Below, in pieces: positions 8,440 to 39,084 of a stretch of 64,000 nt of DNA. A program made the position numbers and the translations under genes. Positions within the stretch are counted from its first letter, which is position 1; the number at the start of each line of letters is the position of its first letter. The stretch lies in the NCBI RefSeq assembly GCF_023051145.1, contig NZ_JALKFS010000001.1:62001-126000 (forward strand). The letters are read 5' to 3'. Below the pieces are notes generated by a model that was not told the DNA's origin, did not search any database, and worked only from the letters and a program-made list of their open reading frames with translations. This DNA comes from Williamsia sp. DF01-3. GTDB taxonomy: Bacteria; Actinomycetota; Actinomycetes; Mycobacteriales; Mycobacteriaceae.

Positions 8440-10263
8440 TTAACTGCTTCCGAATAGCGGCGAGGAGCTACCGGAAGGACTTTCCGGAGACGGACTACCC
8501 GCCGAGACCGGAATGTCGATGACAGGGCCGGGCGTTCCGTTGGTGGCGACGGTCAGAGCCACTCGTGCGACCTCACCGTTGTCGGTTTTCCGAAGCACGA
8601 TGTGGTGCTCGCCGGTTTGGGCATCGGGGGGGACCGCGACGTTCGCGGTAGCGGTGCCGTTGCTGCCTGCGGTCACTGTCGTGAGGAGGACTGGGTCAGA
8701 TTCGAAGTACACGCCGTATGTCGCACCGTTGGTGAGGCCAGTTATGTTCAGTCGCAGCGCCTGGCCACGGGCATAGCCAGCGGTGTCAGCTGGTAGTCCG
8801 GTGGCGAGGAGTCGCAGCCGCAGCGGCGGTGAATCCCGCCAGGTCCGCACTGGGTCGTTGTTGCTGTTCATGATGTCGGCGAACCAGTTTGTCCCCGGTC
8901 CGGTGGCGTCTAGACCTCCGCAGCGACCGGATAGTGCGTGCTCGTATGCGGCGTAAGCTTCAGTGCCGTCGTATTTGCCGTTGCCGTTGAGGTCGAAACG
9001 GTCCTCGTCGGGATACAACGGGCCCGGCTGGAACTTCGTAACTGCCGCATTCTTGAGGGCATCATTGTCGAGAGCGATCTGTACAGACACCGCGGTCGAT
9101 CCTGGGGTGAGTGCGATCGGGTCGCTGTAGCCGAGCAGACTCGCAATGCTCGTGAGCCGTTGGCTGTTGGCGGTGATTTGGATGATGTCGAGTGCGTCTG
9201 GGGGGGCTGTCCCGCTCCGGTTAGACATGGCCATTCCGACCTGGCATTGTTCCAGCGCTTGGTAAAGGTTGTACATCATCAGCCGATCCCCTGCTGCAGC
9301 CGGACGCTCCAGACTGTAGGTCGCGGTGACCGAATCGCCGGCGGCGTAGACGTCCTTAACGGGCTCGATCTTCGGCCCCATTCCGTACGCCAATCGGGCC
9401 TTTGTGATGGTGGCGTGCAACGCCTTCGACATGAACTCGACTTCACTCGTTGGCGACGGCGAAGCGCCGGCACTCGTCACGAACTTCATCCCATCGTTGA
9501 AGTACGTCAGGTGTGTGTCGTGCTTGAAGGGTGGACCCACCGCGCAGATGACGTCCTCGTCGTGGCAGATTGAGACCCGATCAACACCGGGCAGCGTGTA
9601 GAACGTGTCGTTGTAGTCTCCGAGTAGGACCCGAAATATTCCTTGCCCGTCCGAACCGGATCCGTAGACGCCGTCGGCATTTGGTTTCTGCAGCGGATCG
9701 CCAACAGCGAAGACTCCGGCGACGCGGGACTCGCCGGGGTGAGTGATGTTGAGGGTGTTAGCGGCAGTGCGGGCCGCCATCGCTCCTTGTGAATAGCCGA
9801 CGAATACAACTTTCGGGTCGGCGCAGCCCGGTGCTTGACTGAACTCCCGGTACACCCGCAGGGCCGCGGCCGCACCCTCGTTCGCCGAGGCGATGACCGC
9901 TTCGGAGTTTTCCACCGTACCGTCATCCCAAATCACCACCGGCACTGCCGGATAGCCTTCGGTCCCCAGCGAACCTCCAGGCGCGGGGACATCCAGAATT
10001 GGGGCACCGCGCAGGTAGTCGCCCCCCGCCGCTTCGCGGAGCAGTTTATGGAGCGTCGGGCCTTCCCAACCACCCCCGGTCTGCCCGGGATAGCTCGTCA
10101 TTCCCACCGACGTCTCACCCGAACCCCGTAGCGGAATGATGACCACCGGCACACAGTTGGAGTTCGCTGCCGCCGCCACGGGCGCAGCCCACAGCGGCAC
10201 CACCACCGATGCCAGCACCGCCGCGGCAACCGACAACACCGTTGCCCGCCATTTACGGATCAT
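8440..10263 (-). CDS. Secreted cutinase-like esterase with EF-hand-type loop and C-terminal beta domain
   Basis: The 607-residue protein starts at the ATG at 10263 (MIRKW, signal peptide to about residue 33). Residues 35-260 form a cutinase/serine esterase domain: VVIIPLRGSGE, nucleophile elbow GYSQG (Ser158), and the cysteine-bounded Asp segment CHDEDVIC followed by HLTYF with the likely catalytic His. The protein is much longer than plain cutinases (about 200-250). A middle part carries DLNGNGKYDGTE, which fits a calcium-binding EF-hand/dockerin loop. A C-terminal Ig-like domain (LRLNITGLTNGATYGVYF, GEHHIVL) precedes a Ser/Pro-rich tail ending PLFGSS, which echoes the CFGS tags but lacks the cysteines. 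Likely substrate: lipid or polyester esters outside the cell. Confidence 0.8.
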   Translation of the reverse strand: MIRKWRATVLSVAAAVLASVVVPLWAAPVAAAANSNCVPVVIIPLRGSGETSVGMTSYPGQTGGGWEGPTLHKLLREAAGGDYLRGAPILDVPAPGGSLGTEGYPAVPVVIWDDGTVENSEAVIASANEGAAAALRVYREFSQAPGCADPKVVFVGYSQGAMAARTAANTLNITHPGESRVAGVFAVGDPLQKPNADGVYGSGSDGQGIFRVLLGDYNDTFYTLPGVDRVSICHDEDVICAVGPPFKHDTHLTYFNDGMKFVTSAGASPSPTSEVEFMSKALHATITKARLAYGMGPKIEPVKDVYAAGDSVTATYSLERPAAAGDRLMMYNLYQALEQCQVGMAMSNRSGTAPPDALDIIQITANSQRLTSIASLLGYSDPIALTPGSTAVSVQIALDNDALKNAAVTKFQPGPLYPDEDRFDLNGNGKYDGTEAYAAYEHALSGRCGGLDATGPGTNWFADIMNSNNDPVRTWRDSPPLRLRLLATGLPADTAGYARGQALRLNITGLTNGATYGVYFESDPVLLTTVTAGSNGTATANVAVPPDAQTGEHHIVLRKTDNGEVARVALTVATNGTPGPVIDIPVSAGSPSPESPSGSSSPLFGSS

Positions 10264-11394
10264 CCTCGAACCCCCAAGATTACCGCCTACCTTCGGGTAG
10301 GACGCAGAAATACTAGCCCGCCGGACCACGGTCTGCCAGATGCTGTAACGCCACCCTCGCCCGTCGTCGGCCGAACAATCCGGACACCGCTTGCGCATCA
10401 CAAGCACAAACGAAGGGGCCTAGTCATATGAACAGCTGACTTGGCACTCTCCCCCACGTAGATCAGGTAACGTGACGATTGGCATTTTCCCAAGTGCACC
10501 ACAGTGTCTCCCGTCTGGCGGGGTTCGGCCCCTAGACGGGGGCACTGTGCGAAGCGCGCGAGAAACGTGAGACGAACGCCGCGAAAGCATACACACAGCG
10601 ACGGGGCATTCAGAGACCCAACTCCACTCTTGGTGGTCCGTTTTCACCGATCTGATTGCGATACCCAGTCAGCTTCACCCGAGGCAATTTCAGTCATCGA
10701 GCTCACTCGTTGTCCCCGAAGACCCTCCGCCCCCCACACCACAAGCAGCCGCTACAGCGAACACCGACGGATACGCAAGTAGACGACACCCCAACGGCAC
10801 GGTGCGATTCACGTTGAACACCGGCGCAGGAACCTGACGATGCCCGCACGACTCCGAGCGGGCATGCTCGAGGTCGCCCTGGCTATCGGCGCACTCATCG
10901 GTGTCGCCTGCAAGTCGTCGCCATCGTGTTGCCGCGAGAGTTGCGGGCGCGTCAAGGGGTGGAGACAGAAGCAGCTACAGGGGTGTCCGAACCCGTCAGT
11001 GCCGCAAGGGGACCGCGCCCGGCCTTCTATGCAGTGATCGTCCGGTTCGTGGTGAATGTTCCGGTTCTGGTTCCACTCCGAAGATTGCAGCCGCACGCCC
11101 AGCAAAGCGGGCACTTTGCCACTGCCACGCGGGGTCTGTATTGACTACCGACCACTTCCTTCTCGACGAGGTGCGTTGCAACAAGCAGTCCTGCATTGAC
11201 ACGTTGAGATCGTCCACGTTGTCATCTGGAAGTGGGATTGACTTCGGTGACGTGCCCGGCGGGGTTGCGCCGGGCGTTGGTACGAACGCATGAATTGTGT
11301 GTCGATGGCCTGGTTAAAACGCTTTCCTTCATTGTCGAGACATACTCTGCCAGTGGCGCATTAGCGCTGAACCCACCCGGAGAGGAAGACAATC
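10264..11394. other. Long intergenic region between cutinase and RiPP cluster
   Basis: No gene is supported in these 1.1 kb. A frame around 10909-11144 on plus has mildly protein-like text (YAVIVRFVVNVPVLVPLRRL) but no start or motif, and may be an eroded gene. A GC-rich hairpin lies at 11254-11275. The last 100 bases hold the promoter and the AGAGGAAG ribosome site of the RiPP precursor. Confidence 0.4.
11254..11275 (+). terminator. GC-rich hairpin before the RiPP cluster
   Basis: GCCCGGCG-GGGTTG-CGCCGGGC is a perfect 8-bp stem with a 6-base loop and no T-run. It probably insulates the RiPP operon from upstream transcription, or it lies in the 5' leader. Confidence 0.4.
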
Positions 11395-11538
11395 ATGCGC
11401 GAAATCAACCAGCCCGCAGTCCGGTCCGAGGACGCTGACAAGCCCTTGTTCCTCAAGAGCGTTGTTGAGCCGCTCGACGACCGCGTCGAGATGGGCAAGC
11501 TGTCGAAGATGTGCAAGAACTCCTTCTACGGCAACTAG
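11395..11538 (+). CDS. RiPP precursor peptide (47 residues)
   Basis: A short gene with ribosome site AGAGGAAG six bases before the ATG. The leader (about 1-35) is charged and includes KPLFLKSVVEPLDD, a likely recognition helix. The end, KMCKNSFYGN, is the likely core. It is the first gene of a co-oriented set holding an unknown protein, an ATP-grasp enzyme, a radical SAM/SPASM enzyme, a PqqD-like protein and an M50 protease, the standard neighbourhood of a ribosomally made, modified peptide. It is not mycofactocin: the MftA ending and MftB-F set are absent. The core offers one Cys, two aromatic residues and an Asn; Tyr-Gly-Asn would fit an aromatic-X-X crosslink, but that is inference. Confidence 0.72.
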   Translation: MREINQPAVRSEDADKPLFLKSVVEPLDDRVEMGKLSKMCKNSFYGN

Positions 11539-11546
11539 CGGTCACG

Positions 11547-11575
11547 GCGTGGGCGACCTTTTGGGCCGCCCACGC
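11547..11575 (+). terminator. Attenuator-like hairpin between precursor and enzyme genes
   Basis: GCGTGGGCG (11547-11555) pairs perfectly with CGCCCACGC (11567-11575) across an 11-base loop containing TTTT. It starts 8 bases after the precursor stop. Partial terminators in this place are common in RiPP operons and give far more precursor than enzyme mRNA; that role here is inferred. Confidence 0.65.
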
Positions 11576-11590
11576 TTCGCTATCGACGTG

Positions 11591-12409
11591 ATGAAACTTT
11601 TCATTTCACACGCTCCCGGAACCACGCAGGCTGACAGTCAGTATCGTGAATGGGAGCGTCTTTTCGGCCATGATGACTGGCAGCAACGCCTCAGTGTGCT
11701 CGGCGCCTACGGCATCGACCACAAGACACTGCCAGCCGAAATCGAGACATCGGTCCAGCTCCTGACTCAGGTGGAGGTTGGTGCTCGTCTCATTGCCCAG
11801 CAGTACGGCGTGCCGCTGATACCGGAAATAGACGGCGCAGCTGCGATTCTTCGGGTGGCTCGATCACTCGCTCAACGCCGCAACCGGGGACACGAATGCG
11901 TCGACTTCGGCTTTCTTGACGCGTCTGTGGCAATCCTGACCGACCTTGGACTGCCTACTGGCGTCACGACACAGTGGACCCGAGGCATCGAAGTACTCGC
12001 GTGCGCTAGCAGACCATCCTGGAGCACTACCGAGATCGAGGATGCTGCCAGCTCGCTGCCGTTAGCAGTGGTAAACCACATCTTGCAAAGCATTTCAGGT
12101 TTGTCGACCGTAGGCGATGTACTCAGTGCCGGTACGGCTGTGGACTGGCTTCTGCAAGATATCGCCCTGTTGTTGAGTGATGCGCCGAGGACCGGGCACA
12201 CCGCCCCCATCAGCGATGCGCTCGTCATCAACCCCCACGTTCTAGACCAGCGGACGCAACGTGTTCTTGCCGTTCTTGATGTGCGTGCCCGCCACTTCTC
12301 AGGTGCGCTCGAGGCAGACTTACCCTCGTTCATTAGCGACCATTTTGGCCCCGTGCGACACATGGTGGGCATCGTCGCAACGGGCCTTGAGCAGCGTGGT
12401 CTGCTATGA
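11591..12409 (+). CDS. RiPP-cluster protein of unknown function
   Basis: The 272-residue protein follows the precursor and its hairpin and overlaps the ATP-grasp gene by 4 bases. I place the start at ATG 11591 (MKLFISHAPG), because the open frame upstream overlaps the precursor in another phase. The sequence is soluble and mostly helical, with no signal peptide, membrane segment or metal motif. Landmarks are REWERLFGHDDWQQRL near the start, HECVDFGFLDASVAIL, and a C-terminal VLDVRARHFSGALEADLPSF. I recognise no family. Tight coupling suggests a needed part of peptide modification, perhaps a scaffold or a second tailoring enzyme. Confidence 0.7.
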   Translation: MKLFISHAPGTTQADSQYREWERLFGHDDWQQRLSVLGAYGIDHKTLPAEIETSVQLLTQVEVGARLIAQQYGVPLIPEIDGAAAILRVARSLAQRRNRGHECVDFGFLDASVAILTDLGLPTGVTTQWTRGIEVLACASRPSWSTTEIEDAASSLPLAVVNHILQSISGLSTVGDVLSAGTAVDWLLQDIALLLSDAPRTGHTAPISDALVINPHVLDQRTQRVLAVLDVRARHFSGALEADLPSFISDHFGPVRHMVGIVATGLEQRGLL

Positions 12410-13326
12410 GCGCAATCGTTCTAGCTGACCATGACGACCCCGATTTTGCGGTCGCGGCTGGTGGCACGTCTGATGTTCGGCTGTTCCCCTTGGGGCTGCC
12501 GGCAGATGAGTATCGACTCATCCGCTCGGGCGGACAGTGGGCGCTGCATACCTCGCGGTGTGTGCTCAGTGAGCGGCACGTTGCATCCGCGTCACGAGTG
12601 GTGGTTCGGCGTTGGCGTTCCTCGCCGCCTCGTCCACTGGTTGATGTGGAACGTTCCGCACGTCGAACCGACCCTGTAGCGCAGTATGTGCAGCGTCAGT
12701 GGGAATCAACGGTGCTGGGGTTGTTGTTTCTCGCGTACACGGCTCGGCCAGAGGGATGGTCGCGCAGTCCTTTTCACGTCGACAACAAGATCGTCACCCA
12801 TCACGTCCTGGCGGACTTGGGTGTTCTACCTGACTGCGCCATTGCTCAGGATCTCAATGATGTGCCCGTGTGGCCAGCAACGGTGGCCAAACCGATCGAT
12901 AGTGATCAGAGCTGCGGAACCGACCGTAGGGCAACTACTTTGCTGGTCTCACCCGCCGACCGTCGAACCCGGCAACCGGGCCCGATGATGACCCAGCGCG
13001 CGATCATTTCGAGCCGAGAAATCCGAGCTGTGTACAGCTTCGGTCAGATCGGTGCCGTCGTGCACACCAGAGACGTGGACGCGGATTCGGTCGACACCCG
13101 ACTGGCACTGTCTGGGGAGATCGCACCTTTCGCCTCCTCTCGCCTGAGGACGGTGATGGAACAGATTTCCAGGCGGCTCGCCCTCCGTGTGTTCACCGTC
13201 GACGTCAAGCTCGACGACGATGACCGCCTGTGGTGGCTTGACGTCAATCCCGACGGCCTCGTGTCGCCCTTTGATGACGTCGACGGCACGTTGCGCCACA
13301 CGCTCCTCGCCGGCCTGCGAAACTAA
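12406..13326 (+). CDS. ATP-grasp RiPP maturase (MvdD/TgmB-like)
   Basis: The 306-residue protein has the look of short ATP-grasp peptide ligases such as MdnB/MdnC and TgmB. QWESTVLGLLF lies in the middle of the N-terminal domain, VAKPID in the ATP-binding lobe, and MTQRAIISSREIRAVYSFGQ leads into the lid. The magnesium site VDVKLDDDDRLWWLDVNPDG, with the D-x-N-P-x-G end, corresponds to the ExNPxG of the family. These enzymes phosphorylate an Asp/Glu side chain and close an ester or amide ring in a precursor peptide. The leader and core here have Asp/Glu as well as Ser/Lys. The gene overlaps the upstream gene by 4 bases and lies 16 bases before the radical SAM gene. Confidence 0.8.
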   Translation: MSAIVLADHDDPDFAVAAGGTSDVRLFPLGLPADEYRLIRSGGQWALHTSRCVLSERHVASASRVVVRRWRSSPPRPLVDVERSARRTDPVAQYVQRQWESTVLGLLFLAYTARPEGWSRSPFHVDNKIVTHHVLADLGVLPDCAIAQDLNDVPVWPATVAKPIDSDQSCGTDRRATTLLVSPADRRTRQPGPMMTQRAIISSREIRAVYSFGQIGAVVHTRDVDADSVDTRLALSGEIAPFASSRLRTVMEQISRRLALRVFTVDVKLDDDDRLWWLDVNPDGLVSPFDDVDGTLRHTLLAGLRN

Positions 13327-13342
13327 GAGAAAGCAGATTCAC

Positions 13343-14731
13343 ATGCACACGCCTCTACCCCTGAGCTCGCCTAGTGCCGCCGACACACACCGGCTCAGGT
13401 TGAGCACCTACACGCGAATCGTCGACGTGCACAACGACACCAGCGTGATACTCAACTTGCCTCGTAGGGTTGCCGACGTGGTCCCTACGGTGCAGGCACA
13501 AGTTTTGCAGGCCGATCTGCACAATGCCGACCCGCAGTGGGTTCGGTACGCCACCCGCGTCGGCTACCTCACCGACCAGACCCGTGAGTCCGAGAGACAG
13601 TGGTTTCGAGAACTCGTCGGCACCATCGCCGACGACAAGAGGGACGGTGCGGTCGCGACCCTCAGCTTGGTCACCACAAACACGTGTAACCTGGCCTGTT
13701 CGTACTGTTTTCAGTCCGACAGCGGAATGCGAGAGATTGCTCAACGCTTCATGACGATCGATCAGGCGAAAGAGAGTTTCGCCGCTATTGACCGTTTGGT
13801 CGACAACGGGCAGGTCTTGTCCCACATCGAGTTGTTCGGCGGCGAACCCCTGTTGCCCAGTACTCGCAGGGTCGTTGAGTATGCCGTCCTGGAAGCAGAA
13901 CGCCGGGGCCTGCTCACCCGGGCCACCTCCAACGGCGTCTTTTTAGATCACTTCGTCGACCTCCTCGGGCCCACCCGGATCTACGACTTGCAAGTGACAC
14001 TCGACGGATCTGCCCGCTTCCACGACGAGCGTCGTATCGGCAAGAAACGCCAACCCACGTTCGACCGTATTTTGGCCAATATCGAGCTGGCAGTAGCACG
14101 CGGTGTCGATGTCGACATTCGAGCCAACATCGACCGGCGGAACATCGACGGCCTGATCGAACTCATCGACGTCCTCGACACCCGCGAACTCCTTGACGCC
14201 CCGAACGTGGAGTTCACCTGGGTGAATGTGTGGCCGGACGAGGCGGCAGAAGACGACGTCGATTCGGGTTTCTTTATGACGCGAGCTGACATTGACGCGC
14301 ACTTGGCCCACCAGAGCAGTAACCACCCCGCCCTAACTAAGGTGTCGCCACCTCCAACACCCCTGTCGGCCTACCTGTCCGAGATCATGCACGATCCGCA
14401 AATCCGGTTCTGCGGTGCCGGCGCGAATAACCTTTTTGTCTCCCCGGAAGCGTTGGTGTACAGCTGCGACGAACATGTCGGCCAGCCCCAACGCGCGGTA
14501 GCCACCATAGACGAAGCAGGCATTGCACCGTTGCCGCTCTGGGACGTATGGCGCGATCGTCGGATCGACAAACTGACGAACTGTGTCGATTGCTCAGTCT
14601 CACTGGCCCACGGTGGAGGATGTGGAGCCAAACTATCTGACGCGCAATTGGGCCGCTACGGTGCTTGCGGTACGTTCCCGGCGGACTTCGACAATGAAGT
14701 TCGACGTCTCGCGCTGATTACCGAACCGTGA
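13343..14731 (+). CDS. Radical SAM/SPASM peptide maturase
   Basis: The 462-residue protein starts at ATG 13343. Residues 1-105 form a leader-binding-type N-terminal region. The radical SAM domain has the cluster motif CNLACSYC (Cys115, 119, 122), followed by ELFGGEPLL, the GGEP S-adenosylmethionine motif, and LQVTLDGS. The C-terminal SPASM part has cysteines in RFCGAGANNL, YSCDEH, CVDC, GGCGAK and GACGTF for auxiliary iron-sulfur clusters. Such enzymes make carbon-carbon or thioether crosslinks in RiPPs. Its 4-base overlap with the PqqD-like gene supports a maturase/recognition pair. Crosslink type is not decidable from sequence. Confidence 0.92.
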   Translation: MHTPLPLSSPSAADTHRLRLSTYTRIVDVHNDTSVILNLPRRVADVVPTVQAQVLQADLHNADPQWVRYATRVGYLTDQTRESERQWFRELVGTIADDKRDGAVATLSLVTTNTCNLACSYCFQSDSGMREIAQRFMTIDQAKESFAAIDRLVDNGQVLSHIELFGGEPLLPSTRRVVEYAVLEAERRGLLTRATSNGVFLDHFVDLLGPTRIYDLQVTLDGSARFHDERRIGKKRQPTFDRILANIELAVARGVDVDIRANIDRRNIDGLIELIDVLDTRELLDAPNVEFTWVNVWPDEAAEDDVDSGFFMTRADIDAHLAHQSSNHPALTKVSPPPTPLSAYLSEIMHDPQIRFCGAGANNLFVSPEALVYSCDEHVGQPQRAVATIDEAGIAPLPLWDVWRDRRIDKLTNCVDCSVSLAHGGGCGAKLSDAQLGRYGACGTFPADFDNEVRRLALITEP

Positions 14732-15060
14732 TAACCATCGCTCTGGCCGAAGGCGCATCAGTCGGCGCATCCGGCAACTGCGTCGCGCACTCGCCGAGCG
14801 CAGGAACATTCTCAGTCGACGACACGACCAGGTGCTTGCTTGAGGATCTTGCGCGTCACGGCTCACGCAACTTAGCTGCGGCTGACGATGACACAATGCA
14901 GTCACTTCTGCTTCTCAAGCAGAAAGGTCTAGTCGTATTCGGCGGCTACGACACCACAGGTACGGCTCACAGTGCTTACCTCCCATCGGTTACTGACTTG
15001 GTTGTACGTAAACCCAGCCGCACAGTCGAGCGCATTTTCCACATCATTGCTACCCCCTGA
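14728..15060 (+). CDS. PqqD-like precursor-recognition protein
   Basis: The 110-residue protein has a PqqD/RRE-like central part: SPSAGTFSVDDTTRCLLEDL, then a linker and a helix-strand end, LLLLKQKGLVVFGG. This matches the pattern of PqqD and other RiPP recognition elements (strand, acidic helix, GL-end helix). Such domains bind the leader peptide and present it to the radical SAM enzyme. It overlaps that enzyme's gene by 4 bases and precedes the protease by 8. The assignment is by pattern and context; the fold was not tested. Confidence 0.65.
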   Translation: MITIALAEGASVGASGNCVAHSPSAGTFSVDDTTRCLLEDLARHGSRNLAAADDDTMQSLLLLKQKGLVVFGGYDTTGTAHSAYLPSVTDLVVRKPSRTVERIFHIIATP

Positions 15061-15068
15061 CCCCACTG

Positions 15069-15827
15069 GTGAGCACGGTCGGAGTGTGCATTGGAACCGT
15101 CCTGACCCTCAGTTGGCTGATCTATTGGATGGTCTTTGCCGTACCAGCAGCGCAACTATATGCAGCAATAACAACGTCGCCACTCGTACTTCTCGCCCTG
15201 ATCGCGGCGGCGTGCGCCGTCAAGCTGCTCCTGCATGAAGTCGGGCACTACGCGGCAGCAACGACAGTAGGGATTCGTCCTACAGTTGGGTTCGGGTTGT
15301 ACTTCACCGGTCCTGTCGCCTACGTCGACCTCTCACCCCTCGACACCCGCCCCACCGCCGTACGCATACGGGCAGACCTCGGCGGCGTAGCCATCGACGG
15401 ATACGTACTGACCATCCTCAGCGCGACAGCGATTCACCTCGTCAACAACATTTTGACTGCCGTCGTCGTTGCTATCACAGCGGCCACCTTCGGATCGTTC
15501 AACCTCACCGAAAAATCGGACCTGTACTGGGTGCTACGAGACCGATTCAGCGGAAGAGCGGTGACCGAATGCTGGGACCGCCCCTTGACATTGGTTAAAC
15601 GGTACAGACGCGATCGGTCTTCACAGAGGTTCGTTCGAGTACTCCTCACCGTCTATGCAGCGCTGTTCTTGCTTCAGTTGACCGCCTTCATCCGCTGGCT
15701 CCCAGACATGTTGGAGGAGATCGCGGTCCACGGCGCAGCGTCGCTCACCGGCCCGGCCGTTGTGATGGCATTCTTCCTTCTGGCCGCGGCCGCCGCCCAC
15801 ATCGTGGCACGGCGCCACACGCAATAA
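15069..15827 (+). CDS. M50 (YydH-like) membrane metalloprotease of the RiPP cluster
   Basis: The 252-residue integral membrane protein starts with GTG. It has TM helices near 1-30 and 38-58, with zinc motif HEVGH (about residues 57-61) in the next segment. Two more helices and a conserved-looking NLTEKSDLYWVLRDRF follow; this matches the N-x-x-x-x-x-DGYW-x-x-x-D region of YydH-type peptidases, with DLYW in place of DGYW. Two helices end the protein. In RiPP systems such proteases cut off the leader during export. No ABC transporter lies nearby, so the protease may be the only dedicated exit step, or export uses another locus. Confidence 0.78.
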   Translation: MSTVGVCIGTVLTLSWLIYWMVFAVPAAQLYAAITTSPLVLLALIAAACAVKLLLHEVGHYAAATTVGIRPTVGFGLYFTGPVAYVDLSPLDTRPTAVRIRADLGGVAIDGYVLTILSATAIHLVNNILTAVVVAITAATFGSFNLTEKSDLYWVLRDRFSGRAVTECWDRPLTLVKRYRRDRSSQRFVRVLLTVYAALFLLQLTAFIRWLPDMLEEIAVHGAASLTGPAVVMAFFLLAAAAAHIVARRHTQ

Positions 15828-16100: not shown

Positions 16101-18005
16101 ATGGAGGAATTAACTGCCCACATAGCGCGGCGTCAGGCGCCCGTTCCAGAGCACGTCTCCAATCGTGTGGTGTTGCAGCGCGGCGTGTTCATAGGCCCCA
16201 CTCCTGGGACTGCCCCCGATCTCTACAGCAGGATAGTTGGGACTTGCCGTGGGCGCGATCGACGCTCAGTGCAGCTCACGCCCGGGTCGGCCGTCGATAC
16301 GGACACGTATTTCGGCCGCTTTCCGGCGGCCTACTACCTCAAGTGGACGACGGTCAGGACTGTCGTTCTCAGCGCCCATTACCATGCACGTGGCCGAGCT
16401 CAGGTTGTTGTCTGGGGCTCTGACAACGGTGGACGGGTCCGCCGGATTTCCCACACCACTGTCGTGCCGGGTTCGCAGACGATCGAGGTGGATGTTGATC
16501 TGGCATCCTTCAGTGACGGCGGGTCGGTGTGGGCGGCGTTTACCGCTGTGGACGATGATTTGACCGTTGCAGATGTGCAGTGGTCGGCACCGGTGGTGCA
16601 GCCGGCGCGCGCCCCAGTAGTGGCTATTTGTACCTTTGACCGTCCCGCACGTTGCCTCGCCACTCTTGAGGTGCTCGGCGCCGATCTGCAGGTGCGAGAA
16701 TCGTTGGGGGCGGTGTACGTCGTCGACCAGGGCACCGACCTCGTCCGAGATCAGGACGGATTTGACCGGGTCGCAACCGAATTCGGGGACCGGCTGGTCT
16801 ATATACAGCAACCCAATCTTGGTGGTGCCGGCGGTTTCACCCGCGGCATGTGCGAGACCCTCGCCCGTCATGACGATGTTCACCTCATTCTGATGGACGA
16901 CGACATTCACCCCGAACCCGAGACAGTTCTGCGGTTAAACGCTTTTGCCAACGTGGCGTGCTCACCCATGATCGTCGGGGCGCAGATGCTGTATCTCCTG
17001 CGTCCGACTCGGTTGCATGTCGGGGCTGAAGAGGCGGATCTTCAGCGACTCAGGGCCGGTCGCTGGTCGGCCAACGCACTGCACGATGCCGACATGCTGA
17101 CCGAGCGTCAGGACAGCGTTGCCGACGCTGGCTACACCGGATGGTGGACCTGCCTGATCCCGACGCAGATCATTAAGCGCAATCAACTTCCCTTGCCGAT
17201 GTTTTTCCAATGGGATGACATCGAGTTCGGTATTCGCACCCGCCTTGCCGGCGACGCTCAGACTGTTACTCTTCCGGGAGCAGCTGTCTGGCACATGGAT
17301 TTCACTGCCAAGGATCACGACGATTGGTCATTGTATTTCAGTGTCCGAAACTCGCTCATCACCGCAGCACTGCACAGCGACCTGGCGCCGACAAAACTCA
17401 GTGTGACTCTGCTGCGTGAGATCAGCCGGTATCTGGTCTCCATGCAGTATGGCCTGGCCCATACGGCGCTTCGCGGTATCGAGGATTTCCTCGCCGGCCC
17501 CGACGTGCTGGCCGATGGCGGTCGACGAGCACTGGAGGCGATACGCCGCGAGCGCGCCGATTTCCCCGAGACAGTCACTCATTCAGCGTCCGAGGTCGCT
17601 GCGCACTCCGTGCCGGTGCGGCCTGCGGGGTTCTGTCCCGATAAGCGGCGCGTGGATGCTGTTCTCGCTGAGCGTGCGGTGCGGCAGATGACCGGCCGTG
17701 TCCACTCTGGTCGCGTTGCGATCCCCGGTGCGGACGCGCACTGGTGGCATGTGTCGTTGTTCGAGGAGGCGGTGGTTCCAGAGGCATCGGGACATGGTGT
17801 TCGGGTGCGCACTCGTGATGCGCGGTTGGCTCGAACACTGACACTGCGGATGCTGAGGGTACTGGCGCGCTTTCGCGCCAAGGCGGTCGGGGCGCAGCAG
17901 GCCTACCGAACCGAGTTGCCTCGGTTGACCAGTCGCGACAACTGGCAGCGACTGTTCGACGCAGCACCCGAGGGTGGGGACTCGATCAACGCTTCGCCCA
18001 GCTAG
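16101..18005 (+). CDS. GlfT2-like galactofuranosyltransferase (GT2 family)
   Basis: The 634 residues match the length of mycobacterial GlfT2 (about 637). An N-terminal beta-barrel-like region (about 1-160) precedes a GT-A domain: APVVAICTFDRPARC, NLGGAGGFTRGM (about 239-250), the metal-binding LILMDDDIHPE (about 263-273), FFQWDDIEFGIR with the WDD/E catalytic acid, and VWHMDFTAKD with the metal-ligand His. A helical C-terminal part completes the family layout. GlfT2 enzymes polymerise galactofuranose from UDP-Galf onto the galactan; this one may be the galactan enzyme or a paralogue for another Galf glycan, since glfT1 and aftA-type genes are not next to it. AGGA precedes the start. Its 3' end overlaps the convergent methyltransferase by 20 bases. 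Confidence 0.85.
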   Translation: MEELTAHIARRQAPVPEHVSNRVVLQRGVFIGPTPGTAPDLYSRIVGTCRGRDRRSVQLTPGSAVDTDTYFGRFPAAYYLKWTTVRTVVLSAHYHARGRAQVVVWGSDNGGRVRRISHTTVVPGSQTIEVDVDLASFSDGGSVWAAFTAVDDDLTVADVQWSAPVVQPARAPVVAICTFDRPARCLATLEVLGADLQVRESLGAVYVVDQGTDLVRDQDGFDRVATEFGDRLVYIQQPNLGGAGGFTRGMCETLARHDDVHLILMDDDIHPEPETVLRLNAFANVACSPMIVGAQMLYLLRPTRLHVGAEEADLQRLRAGRWSANALHDADMLTERQDSVADAGYTGWWTCLIPTQIIKRNQLPLPMFFQWDDIEFGIRTRLAGDAQTVTLPGAAVWHMDFTAKDHDDWSLYFSVRNSLITAALHSDLAPTKLSVTLLREISRYLVSMQYGLAHTALRGIEDFLAGPDVLADGGRRALEAIRRERADFPETVTHSASEVAAHSVPVRPAGFCPDKRRVDAVLAERAVRQMTGRVHSGRVAIPGADAHWWHVSLFEEAVVPEASGHGVRVRTRDARLARTLTLRMLRVLARFRAKAVGAQQAYRTELPRLTSRDNWQRLFDAAPEGGDSINASPS

Positions 18006-35636: not shown

Positions 35637-36707
35637 CTATCCAGCGTCGGAGTCCGATTGTGGCGTGCTGACTGTGCTGTGCACGGTGCCGGAAGCTTCA
35701 ATCTCGACGCGCTCGCTGCCGCGGTCGTTGGTGGTGAGAACGGAGGCCACGACGGGGCGCGCCGGGGGCCACATGCGGACAACCACAGAGCCGTTCCGGG
35801 CATTGATAAGTGCTTGAGAGGCGACGGCGTGCACAGTGTCGACGAGTGCGGGAGCGGGTTCGCTGGACCCGGAGTCGTCGAGGAACACGACCTCTACACC
35901 TCGAGTGCGAGCGTGGTACGCGGCGTCGTCGAGGTCGAGTGTCGACAAAATGGGTGCGCGCAATCGGTCGCGTAGGTGCGCTTCGAGCAGGGCGCATTGG
36001 TTGCGTTCGGCGAGTGAGAGAGTGTCGCCGCTGGCGATGCGCTCCATCAGGGGTCGCGCCAGTGTGTCGAGATGGCGTACTTGGCGGCTTCGTTCCTGGA
36101 CGGCCGCAGTCTGAGCGGATAGTTCAGCAATCCGCGCGGTGGTTTGATTGCGTAGAGAGAACACGGCTTTCGCAGTCGGCCGCAGCGTGAAAGATAGTAG
36201 TGCCGCCATGGTCAGCGGGGCGGCGTCGATAACGACCAGGCTCGCGCCGTAGCTGGCTCCATGGCCGGCTCGGGTCGACCAGATGGCGAATACAGCGATC
36301 ATGCCGGCTAGACCGATCCAGGGAGCGATACGGCGGCCTCTAACGTTCATGTAGCAGTAGATGGTGGTTCCGGCGCCGTGAATCCACGTTTGCAGCGATG
36401 AGTCGAGCACTGCGGGAGTGGCCGACAGCACTAGGGCGCAGGCGACCGGTCCAGCGATGGTCAGCATGAGGGTCGGCCAGATGGGAAGTGGGTCGCCGGG
36501 TACTAGCATCAACGCCACAGTCGCCGCAATGAGGATCAATGGTCCTAGGACTGCCGGCCAGGCAGTGGTGAAGCTGTGCATGGTAGCGATGGTGACGACG
36601 AGCATCGCAATGATGTAGGCCGCCACGATGAGCCAGGCCCCGCGGGTGCGCATACCTAGCAGGTCACGCACGTCCTCGTTACCCCCTAATGGTGGTGCGA
36701 TTGTCAT
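35637..36707 (-). CDS. Histidine-kinase-like membrane protein lacking clear catalytic motifs
   Basis: The 356-residue protein has five or six TM helices (about 25-185), then a linker with FSLRNQTTARIAELSAQTAA and QERSRQVRHLDTLARPLMER, like the dimerisation helix of NarX-type kinases with a central His. The last part (about 250-356) resembles a reduced ATPase domain: TVHAVASQALINARNGSVVV echoes the N-box but the N-x-x-x-N and G-box glycines are not convincing. It overlaps the true kinase upstream by 4 bases (ATGA). I infer an accessory or pseudo-kinase that modulates the pair. Confidence 0.65.
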   Translation of the reverse strand: MTIAPPLGGNEDVRDLLGMRTRGAWLIVAAYIIAMLVVTIATMHSFTTAWPAVLGPLILIAATVALMLVPGDPLPIWPTLMLTIAGPVACALVLSATPAVLDSSLQTWIHGAGTTIYCYMNVRGRRIAPWIGLAGMIAVFAIWSTRAGHGASYGASLVVIDAAPLTMAALLSFTLRPTAKAVFSLRNQTTARIAELSAQTAAVQERSRQVRHLDTLARPLMERIASGDTLSLAERNQCALLEAHLRDRLRAPILSTLDLDDAAYHARTRGVEVVFLDDSGSSEPAPALVDTVHAVASQALINARNGSVVVRMWPPARPVVASVLTTNDRGSERVEIEASGTVHSTVSTPQSDSDAG

Positions 36708-37942
36708 TGGTGTTCCCAGTGCTGTTGTTCCCAGTACAGGGTGACGTGAGTGCCGTGTCCTGGCGCGGAGTCGATGACGGCCGATCCCCCGATGTGGTTC
36801 ATGCGGTCGCGGATGCTGACTGCTATGCCCAGTCGATCGGCTGGAACAGTGCCTGGGTCGAAACCGATGCCGTTGTCGGACACTGCGACCTGCAGCTTGA
36901 GATCATCAAGGGAGACGGTGACGGTCGTTGGCGTGGCGCTGTTCGCGTGGCGGTGGCTGTTTCTGACCGCCTCGGCGGTTGCGGCGGCGATGGTACGGAC
37001 GGCCGGGCCGGGGAACGGTATCGCTGGTCGGCCCCTGTCGTGAACTCGTAGCCGCGCATGAGGATCTGCGGTGGTGATGGCGAGTCGGAGGTGTGCGACG
37101 GCGGCATCGACGGGCAGCGTTTCGGTGGTGTTGGTGCCCTCACGCATGGTGTCGAGGTCAGCGAGTGTGGCTTGCGCTTGGCGAGCTAGATGATCGGAGT
37201 TTCCCTGGCGAGCGGCAACGAGCAGCGTCGACATCACGCCGTCGTGGGTTAGTTGGTTGAACCGCTGGCGTTCTACAGTGCGCGCTTGGGCTGCCGCGGC
37301 CTGAGCGGTGACCGAGTACGCCTGGGCGCGAGTGTCATCGAGCACCGCGGCTGTGCGCATCCCCATCACGGCAGCAGCGAAGTACACCAACGAAAACGCG
37401 AACGCCCAGGCTATGTCGGGAACGAGCGGGCCGTTGGCCGCTGACGCTCGGACAGCGTGGTTGATGACCGTCGCCAAGACGACTACTCCGACGAGGACGA
37501 CGAACGAGTACCGCGGGGGCAAGGCCAGCGCGGCAGCTATCGCTGCCAGCCCGCAAAAATACGAGAACCAAATATCAGTGTTCCCGGTGAGGTGTTCGCC
37601 GGTCCAGCCAAACCACCAGGTTGCGATAGCGACGACGTAACCGGAAGCGGTGATCGCTGCAGCCACTTTCAGTCGTCGAGTTGGTGCCCGCCACGCCAGG
37701 GGCCCGAGAATTAGGCCTGGTCCGAACACACAGAGAAGTGCGGGGATCGTCCAACCCAGATGCATGACCTGGAGGGACGCTGTGATCGCCGGCAGCGTCA
37801 AGATCAGGTAGGCCAAGTAGCCACAGGCGATGAACACGGCGAATTGCCGCAAGATCCGGCGGCCGGCCGTGCGGTCAAGGGCCGTGTCTGGACTGTCGGT
37901 CGTCAGCGCTGGCGGCGCGTACGTCGTGGAATCGGTAGCCAT
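36704..37942 (-). CDS. NarX/DesK-type sensor histidine kinase
   Basis: The 412-residue protein has an N-terminal membrane region of about six TM helices (about 32-195), then QRFNQLTHDGVMSTLLVAAR, where H-D-G-V fits the phospho-accepting His of the HisKA_3 type. A C-terminal HATPase domain follows with AEAVRNSHRHANSATPTTVT (N-box), VAVSDNGIGFDPG (G1 box) and RLGIAVSIRDRMNHIGG (G2 region). It lies between the response regulator (40-base overlap upstream) and the kinase-like protein (4-base overlap downstream). The signal is probably membrane-linked; no extracytoplasmic sensor domain is seen. Confidence 0.87.
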   Translation of the reverse strand: MATDSTTYAPPALTTDSPDTALDRTAGRRILRQFAVFIACGYLAYLILTLPAITASLQVMHLGWTIPALLCVFGPGLILGPLAWRAPTRRLKVAAAITASGYVVAIATWWFGWTGEHLTGNTDIWFSYFCGLAAIAAALALPPRYSFVVLVGVVVLATVINHAVRASAANGPLVPDIAWAFAFSLVYFAAAVMGMRTAAVLDDTRAQAYSVTAQAAAAQARTVERQRFNQLTHDGVMSTLLVAARQGNSDHLARQAQATLADLDTMREGTNTTETLPVDAAVAHLRLAITTADPHARLRVHDRGRPAIPFPGPAVRTIAAATAEAVRNSHRHANSATPTTVTVSLDDLKLQVAVSDNGIGFDPGTVPADRLGIAVSIRDRMNHIGGSAVIDSAPGHGTHVTLYWEQQHWEHQ

Positions 37943-38571
37943 CCATCCTCAATTGCTCGCAAGACCAGGTGTGATCGTGTTGGGGCGGGCCGGCCCACCG
38001 ACACGTACTTCCTGCGGATACGGCCGACGTAGTCGGCAACGGTTTCAGCTGACAAGTTCATCGCTTTCGCTACCCCGGCAGTTGATTCCCCGGAGGCATA
38101 AAGCTCGAGCACGCGTCGAAGCTGCGGCGAGAGATCCACGAAGTCCTCGTCGGCGTCGATCGCGGCCGCCCAATCCACCGTCGGAGCTTCCTGGCCGGCC
38201 AACGAAGCCCGCATTGCACTAAGCAACTCATCTTCTGGCACGTTCTTACGTACGACCGCTCGAACACCCGCGCTGGCGGCCAACCGCACGAGATACGCCT
38301 CGTCGCCGGAGGTATAGGCGATCGTTGGGGTCCCAACATTGAGGAGGGCCTCGACGTTGGATTGCGGCGATGACCCATCTTCGAGCCGCAGATCGAGGAT
38401 CACCAAGTCCAATTGTTGGGTCTGCTGCAGCAGTTCGGGCACAGTCGCTGCACCAGCCACAAAACGTAGATCATGTTGCGTGTCGAGTATTGCGCGCAAG
38501 CCGACCACGATCGACGGGTGATCATCGACAACACCGATCCGCCCGCGCCAACCATTCGGGTGTGACGTCAT
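37903..38571 (-). CDS. NarL/LuxR-family response regulator
   Basis: From ATG 38571 (222 residues) the product has a receiver domain: IGVVDDHPSIVVGLRAIL (acidic pair), LDLVILDLRLEDGSSP (phospho-accepting Asp), PTIAYTSGD (Thr/Ser) and VRAVVRKNVPE (Lys). A LuxR-type helix-turn-helix follows (LSPQLRRVLELYASGESTAG, LSAETVADYVGRIRRKY). The longer frame to 38730 adds unsupported sequence; ATG 38583 is also possible. It leads the operon regulator-kinase-kinase-like. Its DNA-binding end is closely similar to that of the stand-alone protein at 35226-35489. Confidence 0.87.
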   Translation of the reverse strand: MTSHPNGWRGRIGVVDDHPSIVVGLRAILDTQHDLRFVAGAATVPELLQQTQQLDLVILDLRLEDGSSPQSNVEALLNVGTPTIAYTSGDEAYLVRLAASAGVRAVVRKNVPEDELLSAMRASLAGQEAPTVDWAAAIDADEDFVDLSPQLRRVLELYASGESTAGVAKAMNLSAETVADYVGRIRRKYVSVGRPAPTRSHLVLRAIEDGWLPIPRRTRRQR

Positions 38572-39084
38572 GGCGACAATCATGGACCACAGCGCCGTCC
38601 TGCACTGCACAAGTCCCCAGCATCCGGCGGCCATCAGGCGCGCTGAGCTTGGCGCACCACGTTTAACGTCTTCAGGCGCGGCGATCACTGACAGCCCGAT
38701 TGCGCCGTTGGTAGGACGTGAGACCCCCATCTCGTTGTGGGCCTGGGGGTCTCACGTCACCACTTGAAGCGATCTGGCACCGACGAACGCTTGAGCTGGC
38801 GAGACTCTAATTTCAGCGTGCACCCTGCGCGAGGCTCTCGCGATCGTCTAATCGAACCACTTCAGTCCGACGAGCGGGCGGATTCGCAAGACGCCGAAGA
38901 TAAGCCGAGGCCCGGTGAAATCCGGGACTTCCACGTTTACGCAGTGCCGTACACCCACTTGTGGTGAATCAAATCTTTTCACGCCTCCCCCATAGATCTA
39001 TTGATCGCTGCTGCCGCTCGGCCGGGGGTGAAGGTGTACCTGGGGGTAGGGTTCGCTGCCAGGCGGCCAGAACGGATTGATCGG
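38572..39084. other. Intergenic region with a strong terminator
   Basis: No gene is supported. The stretch holds the promoter of the response-regulator operon and the 14-bp hairpin at 38715-38758. Plus-strand frames here lack motifs and ribosome sites. Confidence 0.45.
38715..38758. terminator. Fourteen-base-pair terminator hairpin
   Basis: GACGTGAGACCCCC (38715-38728) pairs perfectly with GGGGGTCTCACGTC (38745-38758) across a 16-base loop. It insulates the two-component operon from the secreted-protein gene whose 3' end is at 39085. Confidence 0.75.

Follow-up and report, generated by a model that had tools for sequence, protein, structure and literature searches.

A candidate hybrid RiPP gene cluster with predicted graspetide-type ATP-grasp and radical SAM/SPASM enzymes on a plasmid-like contig of Williamsia sp. 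DF01-3

Gene clusters with an ATP-grasp enzyme and a SPASM enzyme beside a short precursor are described from Bacteroidetes as grasp-with-spasm systems (TIGR04192/TIGR04193; branch 5 in PMC8939145). That source describes pairings of ATP-grasp and SPASM genes in branch 2 (bacteria of candidate phyla), branch 5 (Bacteroides), and branch 6, and LPL and cluster 23 proteins accompany branch 5. Here we describe six plus-strand genes at positions 11395-15827 of a 64,000-nucleotide stretch of the Williamsia sp. DF01-3 genome (the window), which encode a precursor, the product of a gene that we call gene B, an ATP-grasp enzyme, a radical S-adenosylmethionine (SAM)/SPASM enzyme, a 110 amino acid protein, and an M50-type protease. 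Judging by sequence, this is a real gene set of the ribosomally synthesized and post-translationally modified peptide (RiPP) type, with a short precursor that has a leader and a conserved core beside modifying enzymes. We consider it moderately likely that the product is a hybrid RiPP, plasmid-borne, that carries one lysine lactam and one radical crosslink at Cys40 and is cut or exported by the M50 protease. No described match to the cluster was found in the open-licence literature, judged by titles and abstract openings.

The likeness to grasp-with-spasm lies in the two enzymes and the short precursor, but the window also has an M50 protease and a small RiPP recognition element (RRE)-like protein, and it matches neither family model. 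The host genome gave 0 matches at E ≤ 10 to the TIGR04193 radical SAM model (no candidate reached scoring) and 0 to the TIGR04192 ATP-grasp model (1 candidate scored). Mycofactocin is rejected as well, as the radical SAM enzyme scores 47.6 bits against the MftC cut-off of 265; the original prediction had set the cluster apart from both systems, and rightly. Graspetide systems (MvdC/MvdD, TIGR04187/TgmB) resemble it in an ATP-grasp enzyme that can be aligned end to end, in the same active-site residues, and in a conserved P-x-F-L leader block. However, the window precursor has no Asp or Glu after Gly34, the six genes include neither a methyltransferase nor a C39 transporter, and a radical SAM enzyme is present. 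Ranthipeptide and sactipeptide maturases (CefB, PapB, SCIFF/CteB, TIGR04463) share the radical SAM/SPASM architecture and one invariant core Cys, but the window enzyme has His for an auxiliary Cys, has an ATP-grasp partner, and scores far below the cut-offs. The epipeptide cluster (YydFGH/EpeP, LiaK) combines a radical SAM enzyme with an M50 protease; unlike the window it has no ATP-grasp enzyme, and epipeptide clusters carry ABC transporter genes, which this cluster does not. The features of the locus are as follows.

11379..11388, plus strand: ggagaggaag, a purine-rich ribosome-binding site ahead of the precursor gene (by eye)
11395..11538, plus strand: precursor peptide of 47 amino acids (P0001), with a relative on the Rhodococcus qingshengii RL1 plasmid (L012:7830-7976)
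11536..11582, plus strand: GC-rich hairpin directly 3' of the precursor gene (-29.8 kcal/mol, z -3.39)
11591..12409, plus strand: gene B, 272 amino acids, start ATG 11591, helical by a low-confidence model
12406..13326, plus strand: predicted graspetide-type ATP-grasp ligase, 306 amino acids (family, structure matches, residue alignment)
13343..14731, plus strand: predicted radical SAM/SPASM peptide maturase, 462 amino acids, start ATG 13343 (family matches, tree)
14609..14611, plus strand: codon of His423, at the third Cys position of the SPASM motif CX2CX5CX3C (motif comparison)
14728..15060, plus strand: small protein, 110 amino acids, possibly RRE/PqqD-like (weak), fused to the M50 protein in RL1
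15069..15827, plus strand: predicted membrane M50-type metalloprotease, 252 amino acids (HEVGH and second-site Asp, by eye)

The original prediction named five of these genes, all present on the plus strand, and missed gene B in the interval between the precursor and the ATP-grasp gene. Its spacing of 4-16 bases holds for the gaps between the ATP-grasp and radical SAM genes (16 bases) and between the 110 amino acid and M50 genes (8 bases), but not for the 52-base gap before gene B or for the 4-base overlaps of gene B with the ATP-grasp gene and of the radical SAM gene with the next. The 52-base gap holds the strong hairpin, possibly a transcript-end or partial-terminator element; a terminator scan did not pick it up.

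A second cluster lies on a Rhodococcus plasmid. The ATP-grasp protein searched by tblastn against 72,556 plasmid records matched one record, that of R. qingshengii RL1 (NZ_CP042915.1); the word "Rhodococcus" is absent from the main text of PMC8939145. The RL1 order is precursor, an IS481 transposase gene (L012:7987-8994) between the precursor and the remainder of the operon, a 283 amino acid gene where the window has gene B, then ATP-grasp, radical SAM, and a fusion of the RRE-like and M50 parts, which are two genes in the window. The order of the precursor, ATP-grasp, radical SAM, PqqD-like, and M50 parts is identical in both, which speaks against a chance arrangement, and the proteins are 45% (radical SAM) and 35-36% (ATP-grasp) identical. 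A short metagenome contig (L016) encodes a near-copy of the RL1 radical SAM enzyme and an identical fusion protein.

The R. rhodochrous BX2 plasmid (L013) and genome G289 (L052) have related clusters with a radical SAM enzyme, a 38 amino acid precursor ending in MCSCFSFGG, an M50 protein, and a 281 amino acid gene of borderline similarity to gene B (for BX2, E 9e-4 in a database of nine sequences; probability 7.9%). Their radical SAM enzymes are the nearest relatives of the window and RL1 pair, at 33% identity. In a tree of 40 rows chosen from the loci of the motif comparison described below, the pair is joined with support of 100/99 and the BX2 and G289 enzymes are its sister, also at 100/99. 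These clusters differ from the window in having no FLKSVV block, a different tail, and no detected ATP-grasp enzyme of this kind, either in the two loci (E ≤ 1e-3) or on the BX2 plasmid record; G289 is also absent from the ATP-grasp matches in the order sample, taken as that of the radical SAM search. The BX2 and G289 clusters are closely related to each other (93% identity in one gene). A hairpin follows the BX2 precursor also, and is weaker (z -2.06).

The window precursor ends in ...MGKLSKMCKNSFYGN and shares with RL1 the pattern FLKSVVxPxDxR..MG..KMCK...YGN; 0 of 2000 shuffles scored as high as the best ungapped match between the two. The BX2 precursor aligns without gaps at the C-terminal end, where the tail shares R, E, M, L, M, C, and G and both peptides terminate at the same position. 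Of 20,000 shuffles, 0 scored as high as this end-anchored alignment; for the free local alignment the figure is 3 of 2000. Cys40 and an aromatic residue at 45 followed by Gly46 are present in all precursors compared and probably belong to the radical SAM step, whereas FLKSVV, Lys38, and Lys41 occur only in the clusters with ATP-grasp, which is suggestive of a link to that enzyme. The window and RL1 precursors have no Asp or Glu downstream of Met33-Gly34, which rules out a classical side-chain graspetide ring inside that stretch. Lys38 and Lys41 could serve as ring donors, and the sole shared acid candidate is Asp28. The ATP-grasp enzyme would therefore use Asp28, the C-terminal carboxylate, or an outside amine, and a ring would be atypical for graspetides. 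Since the nucleophiles exclusive to the ATP-grasp clusters are lysines, an amide appears more likely than an ester. A search for extra precursor copies in the host genome gave one further match (E 0.48), which we take as chance.

The ATP-grasp protein is, by sequence comparison, a graspetide-type ligase of the MvdC/MvdD/TgmB kind that falls below curated cut-offs. Its nearest named family is TIGR04187 (E 1.4e-4 for the window, 2e-7 for RL1), with 21.2 bits for the window protein against a cut-off of 350, and the best two PDB matches are 9bou (MvdD-like, E 0.0036) and 7m4s (AMdnB, E 0.0085). We compared residues with four graspetide-type ATP-grasps from outside loci in other actinobacteria, leaving out a fifth (L005). 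K128, K162, R207, D266, and N281 are kept, with K162 one column off in three of the four, and R198 is kept relative to three. Position 279 is Asp here and Glu in the comparators, and the window has NPDGL where most comparators have NPxGQ (NQSGQ in one). We take K128, K162, R198, R207, D266, D279, and N281 to be the ATP and metal residues of the fold. The nucleotide and metal residues are retained in both the window and RL1 copies. The original prediction had turned on whether homologues keep the ATP site, and their retention argues in favour of an active enzyme. The proposed RiPP-type pairing of a graspetide-like ATP-grasp with a SPASM enzyme is supported.

The radical SAM enzyme has the CX3CX2C motif and all SPASM Cys positions save one. 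The third Cys of CX2CX5CX3C is His423 in the window and likewise His in RL1 and L016, and it is Cys in 46 of the 46 other loci with the spaced motif, though these are not 46 independent cases, as 9 are near-alike loci of Acidobacteria type. Among the 63 loci given, these 46 stand beside two with His (L012 and its near-copy L016), 14 without the spaced motif, and one with no frame (L087). The G289 enzyme has Cys at this position, and BX2 keeps the auxiliary Cys too. By motif spacing, His423 corresponds to Asp319 of PqqE and Cys326 of anSMEcpe, which PMC5715301 reports as ligands of auxiliary cluster II; an Asp ligand is also described in PMC8326336. PqqE is thus like the window enzyme in having a non-Cys residue here, but the residue is His in the window and the substrate is unrelated. 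We found no paper on a histidine ligand of a radical SAM/SPASM auxiliary cluster in a search of the open-licence literature.

Top-scoring families include CefB (117.3 bits, cut-off 600), PapB (94, cut-off 340), SCIFF maturases (84.4, cut-off 425), and TIGR04463, all at 84-117 bits against cut-offs of 340-600. No named maturase family scored above its own cut-off among the best 25 of 77 families, and the best solved relative is 5wgg. Because PapB and SCIFF are named as ranthipeptide or thioether formers, a thioether at Cys40 is a first guess.

For the M50 protein (P0006), HEVGH and the Asp of a second metal site are recognizable by eye; the Pfam match (E 0.0038) is under the gathering score, and there is a weak match to NF058609 (E 0.015). 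The BX2 M50 protein aligns to the RL1 fusion from near its own N-terminus. In PMC10885120 the M50 protease EpeP is reported to cleave, and presumed to export, an epipeptide. By analogy, such cutting and export could explain a cluster without a transporter gene. The 110 amino acid protein is possibly RRE-like or PqqD-like. It has no Pfam match, only a spurious NCBIfam match (E 0.11), and a low-confidence AlphaFold model (mean pLDDT 61) that gave 29 Foldseek hits, none significant. The highest TM-scores (0.40-0.42) are to 8t19, 5v1v, 6gos, and 6jx3, which are RiPP leader-binding or RiPP-synthetase proteins. Gene B has no Pfam or NCBIfam match, and its AlphaFold model, made without an alignment, has a pLDDT of 40 and was set aside, with no fold taken from it.

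From these parts we infer a pathway in which the FLKSVV leader block and the possibly RRE-like protein would recruit the precursor to the enzymes. The ATP-grasp enzyme would activate a carboxylate, that of Asp28 or the C-terminus of Asn47, and join it to Lys38 or Lys41 to give a macrolactam (minus 18 Da). The radical SAM/SPASM enzyme, with His at an auxiliary-cluster Cys position, would form one oxidative crosslink from Cys40 (minus 2 Da), most likely a thioether, with Tyr45 as the most conserved acceptor candidate. The M50 protease would cut the leader in the membrane and, by analogy with EpeP and because the cluster holds no transporter gene, may help to release the peptide. Gene B would be accessory, and the product may be, as a guess, a secreted antagonist or signal.

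A wider proposal, offered tentatively and doubtful as a whole, is that the cluster represents a new RiPP subclass, a Cys-crosslinking radical SAM pathway that gained, or retained, a graspetide ligase. The product would be a bicycle with a Lys lactam onto Asp28 or the C-terminus and the Cys40 crosslink, and the SPASM auxiliary cluster would be held by His, a swap confined to the clusters with ATP-grasp and therefore perhaps tuned to a pre-cyclised substrate. If true, this would be a compact two-enzyme system for bicyclic peptides. The clusters with and without ATP-grasp would form a natural pair with a common precursor tail, so that each enzyme's part could be tested by swapping, and the Cys-to-His change would offer a route to probe the role of the SPASM auxiliary cluster, for which the known precedent is the PqqE Asp ligand.

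Several points weigh against the hybrid RiPP. With just two independent ATP-grasp clusters found and BX2 so closely related to G289, the association of lysines with ATP-grasp amounts to one contrast. The Asp28 equivalent in BX2 is Glu, so an acid here is not specific to the ATP-grasp clusters. The leader (PLFLKSVV in the window, PTFLKSVV in RL1) resembles by eye the graspetide motif Phhx(1,2)h but is not a strict match; according to PMC8939145 the motif occurs in about 50% of graspetide precursors and hence is not strictly defining. The RRE/PqqD-like assignment (PqqD-like in the original prediction) is weak, with no PF05402 (PqqD) match at the cluster. The RL1 and window gene B proteins have no similarity detected by BLAST, nor do the RL1 gene B and the BX2 281 amino acid gene by hhalign. 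No promoter emerged from a simple sigma-70 scan (0 found, 1.5 expected). IS481 interrupts the RL1 operon, and that copy may therefore be out of use.

It is unlikely, in our judgement, that only the radical SAM crosslink is made on the peptide, with the ATP-grasp protein carrying out another step or serving as a non-catalytic binding partner. The failure to detect an ATP-grasp of this kind in the sister clusters, the faster divergence of ATP-grasp than of radical SAM, and the replacement of NPxGQ by NPDGL would fit such a role, but both copies retain the nucleotide and metal residues, and the leader block and two lysines are confined to the ATP-grasp clusters.

Distinctly unlikely is a pearlin-type scaffold, in which the ATP-grasp enzyme extends the precursor at its C-terminal carboxylate by an amine or amino acid and the M50 protease later releases the modified residue. 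The lack of acids after Met33-Gly34, the YGN end identical in the window and RL1, and the coincident ends of the window and BX2 precursors agree with this, as does the cutting of C-terminal modified residues off scaffolds by the M50 proteases TglG and TmoG, reported in PMC10885120. However, no PEARL-like enzyme is among the six genes and the ATP-grasp protein is nearest to ring-closing graspetide ligases. The end is in register in BX2 as well, although no such ATP-grasp was detected there, which makes a role for this end in the radical SAM step more likely.

A decaying or unused cluster is highly improbable. RL1 has the 110 amino acid and M50 parts in one gene and the window has them in two, and IS481 lies inside the RL1 operon, but the six window reading frames are free of internal stops and motifs are conserved although the copies are only 35-45% identical. 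Least probable is a RiPP of the cofactor type, whose C-terminal Tyr-Gly-Asn would become a small redox cofactor, as in pyrroloquinoline quinone or mycofactocin, with the PqqE-like auxiliary change pointing to C-C chemistry: the PqqE Asp319 and anSMEcpe Cys326 comparison (PMC5715301), the possible RRE-like partner, and the conserved C-terminal Tyr speak for it, but no dehydrogenase or later cofactor enzyme is among the six genes, the distribution is sporadic and plasmid-associated (1 of 9 genomes of the genus), and the radical SAM score is far under the mycofactocin cut-off.

The hybrid RiPP cluster looks rare. In genome samples drawn evenly from larger groups, and not a census, the ATP-grasp enzyme (E ≤ 0.001) matched 8 of 397 order genomes and 4 of 396 phylum genomes; apart from the host, these are seven weak matches (25-32% identity) in the order and three weak ones in the phylum. 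The radical SAM enzyme (E ≤ 1e-30) matched 2 of 397 genomes of the order and 1 of 9 of the genus. It also matched 97 plasmid records, two of them Rhodococcus (RL1, BX2), and the RL1 precursor searched against plasmids matched RL1 alone. The single-sequence ATP-grasp search of the genome_contigs collection gave 32 pattern matches, none of them a relative, and a two-row radical SAM alignment found 30 loci there, of which only L016 (43%) is close. In the viral_contigs collection there were zero ATP-grasp matches and 76 radical SAM loci at 20-35% identity. Distant radical SAM matches (L060-L086) occur in 30 of 396 sampled phylum genomes, host apart; we set these aside as a neighbouring family, in which 11 of 14 loci viewed have, by eye, a short frame with CCW or CCF near its end.

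An unannotated Muribaculaceae plasmid (L014, 7977-12977) encodes a related radical SAM enzyme, a Cys-rich open reading frame of 47 amino acids (9375-9518), an M50 protein, and a 759 amino acid open reading frame that resembles an outer-membrane receptor by eye. It is a candidate RiPP cluster.

The host genome is 5.59 Mb, and the window is part of a contig (C1) of 176,292 bases that encodes a TrwC relaxase, a TraG/VirD4-type coupling protein, and a ParA-like ATPase. From these we infer that C1 is most likely a conjugative plasmid. A three-gene operon at window 35637-38730 (minus strand) encodes an unknown protein, a HATPase sensor kinase, and a LuxR-type response regulator, and is 54-64% identical to an operon directly beside the BX2 and G289 radical SAM clusters. 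The sensor kinase is on 11 plasmid records (10 Rhodococcus and one Gordonia). We set this two-component system aside as a part of the cluster, as only BX2 among the ten Rhodococcus records checked, the Gordonia record excluded, has a radical SAM match. A cutinase-domain protein (window 8440-10407, minus strand) is 41% identical over 252 amino acids to a frame near the BX2 cluster. The plasmid-like contig also encodes a GlfT2-like galactofuranosyltransferase (window 16101-18005, plus strand).

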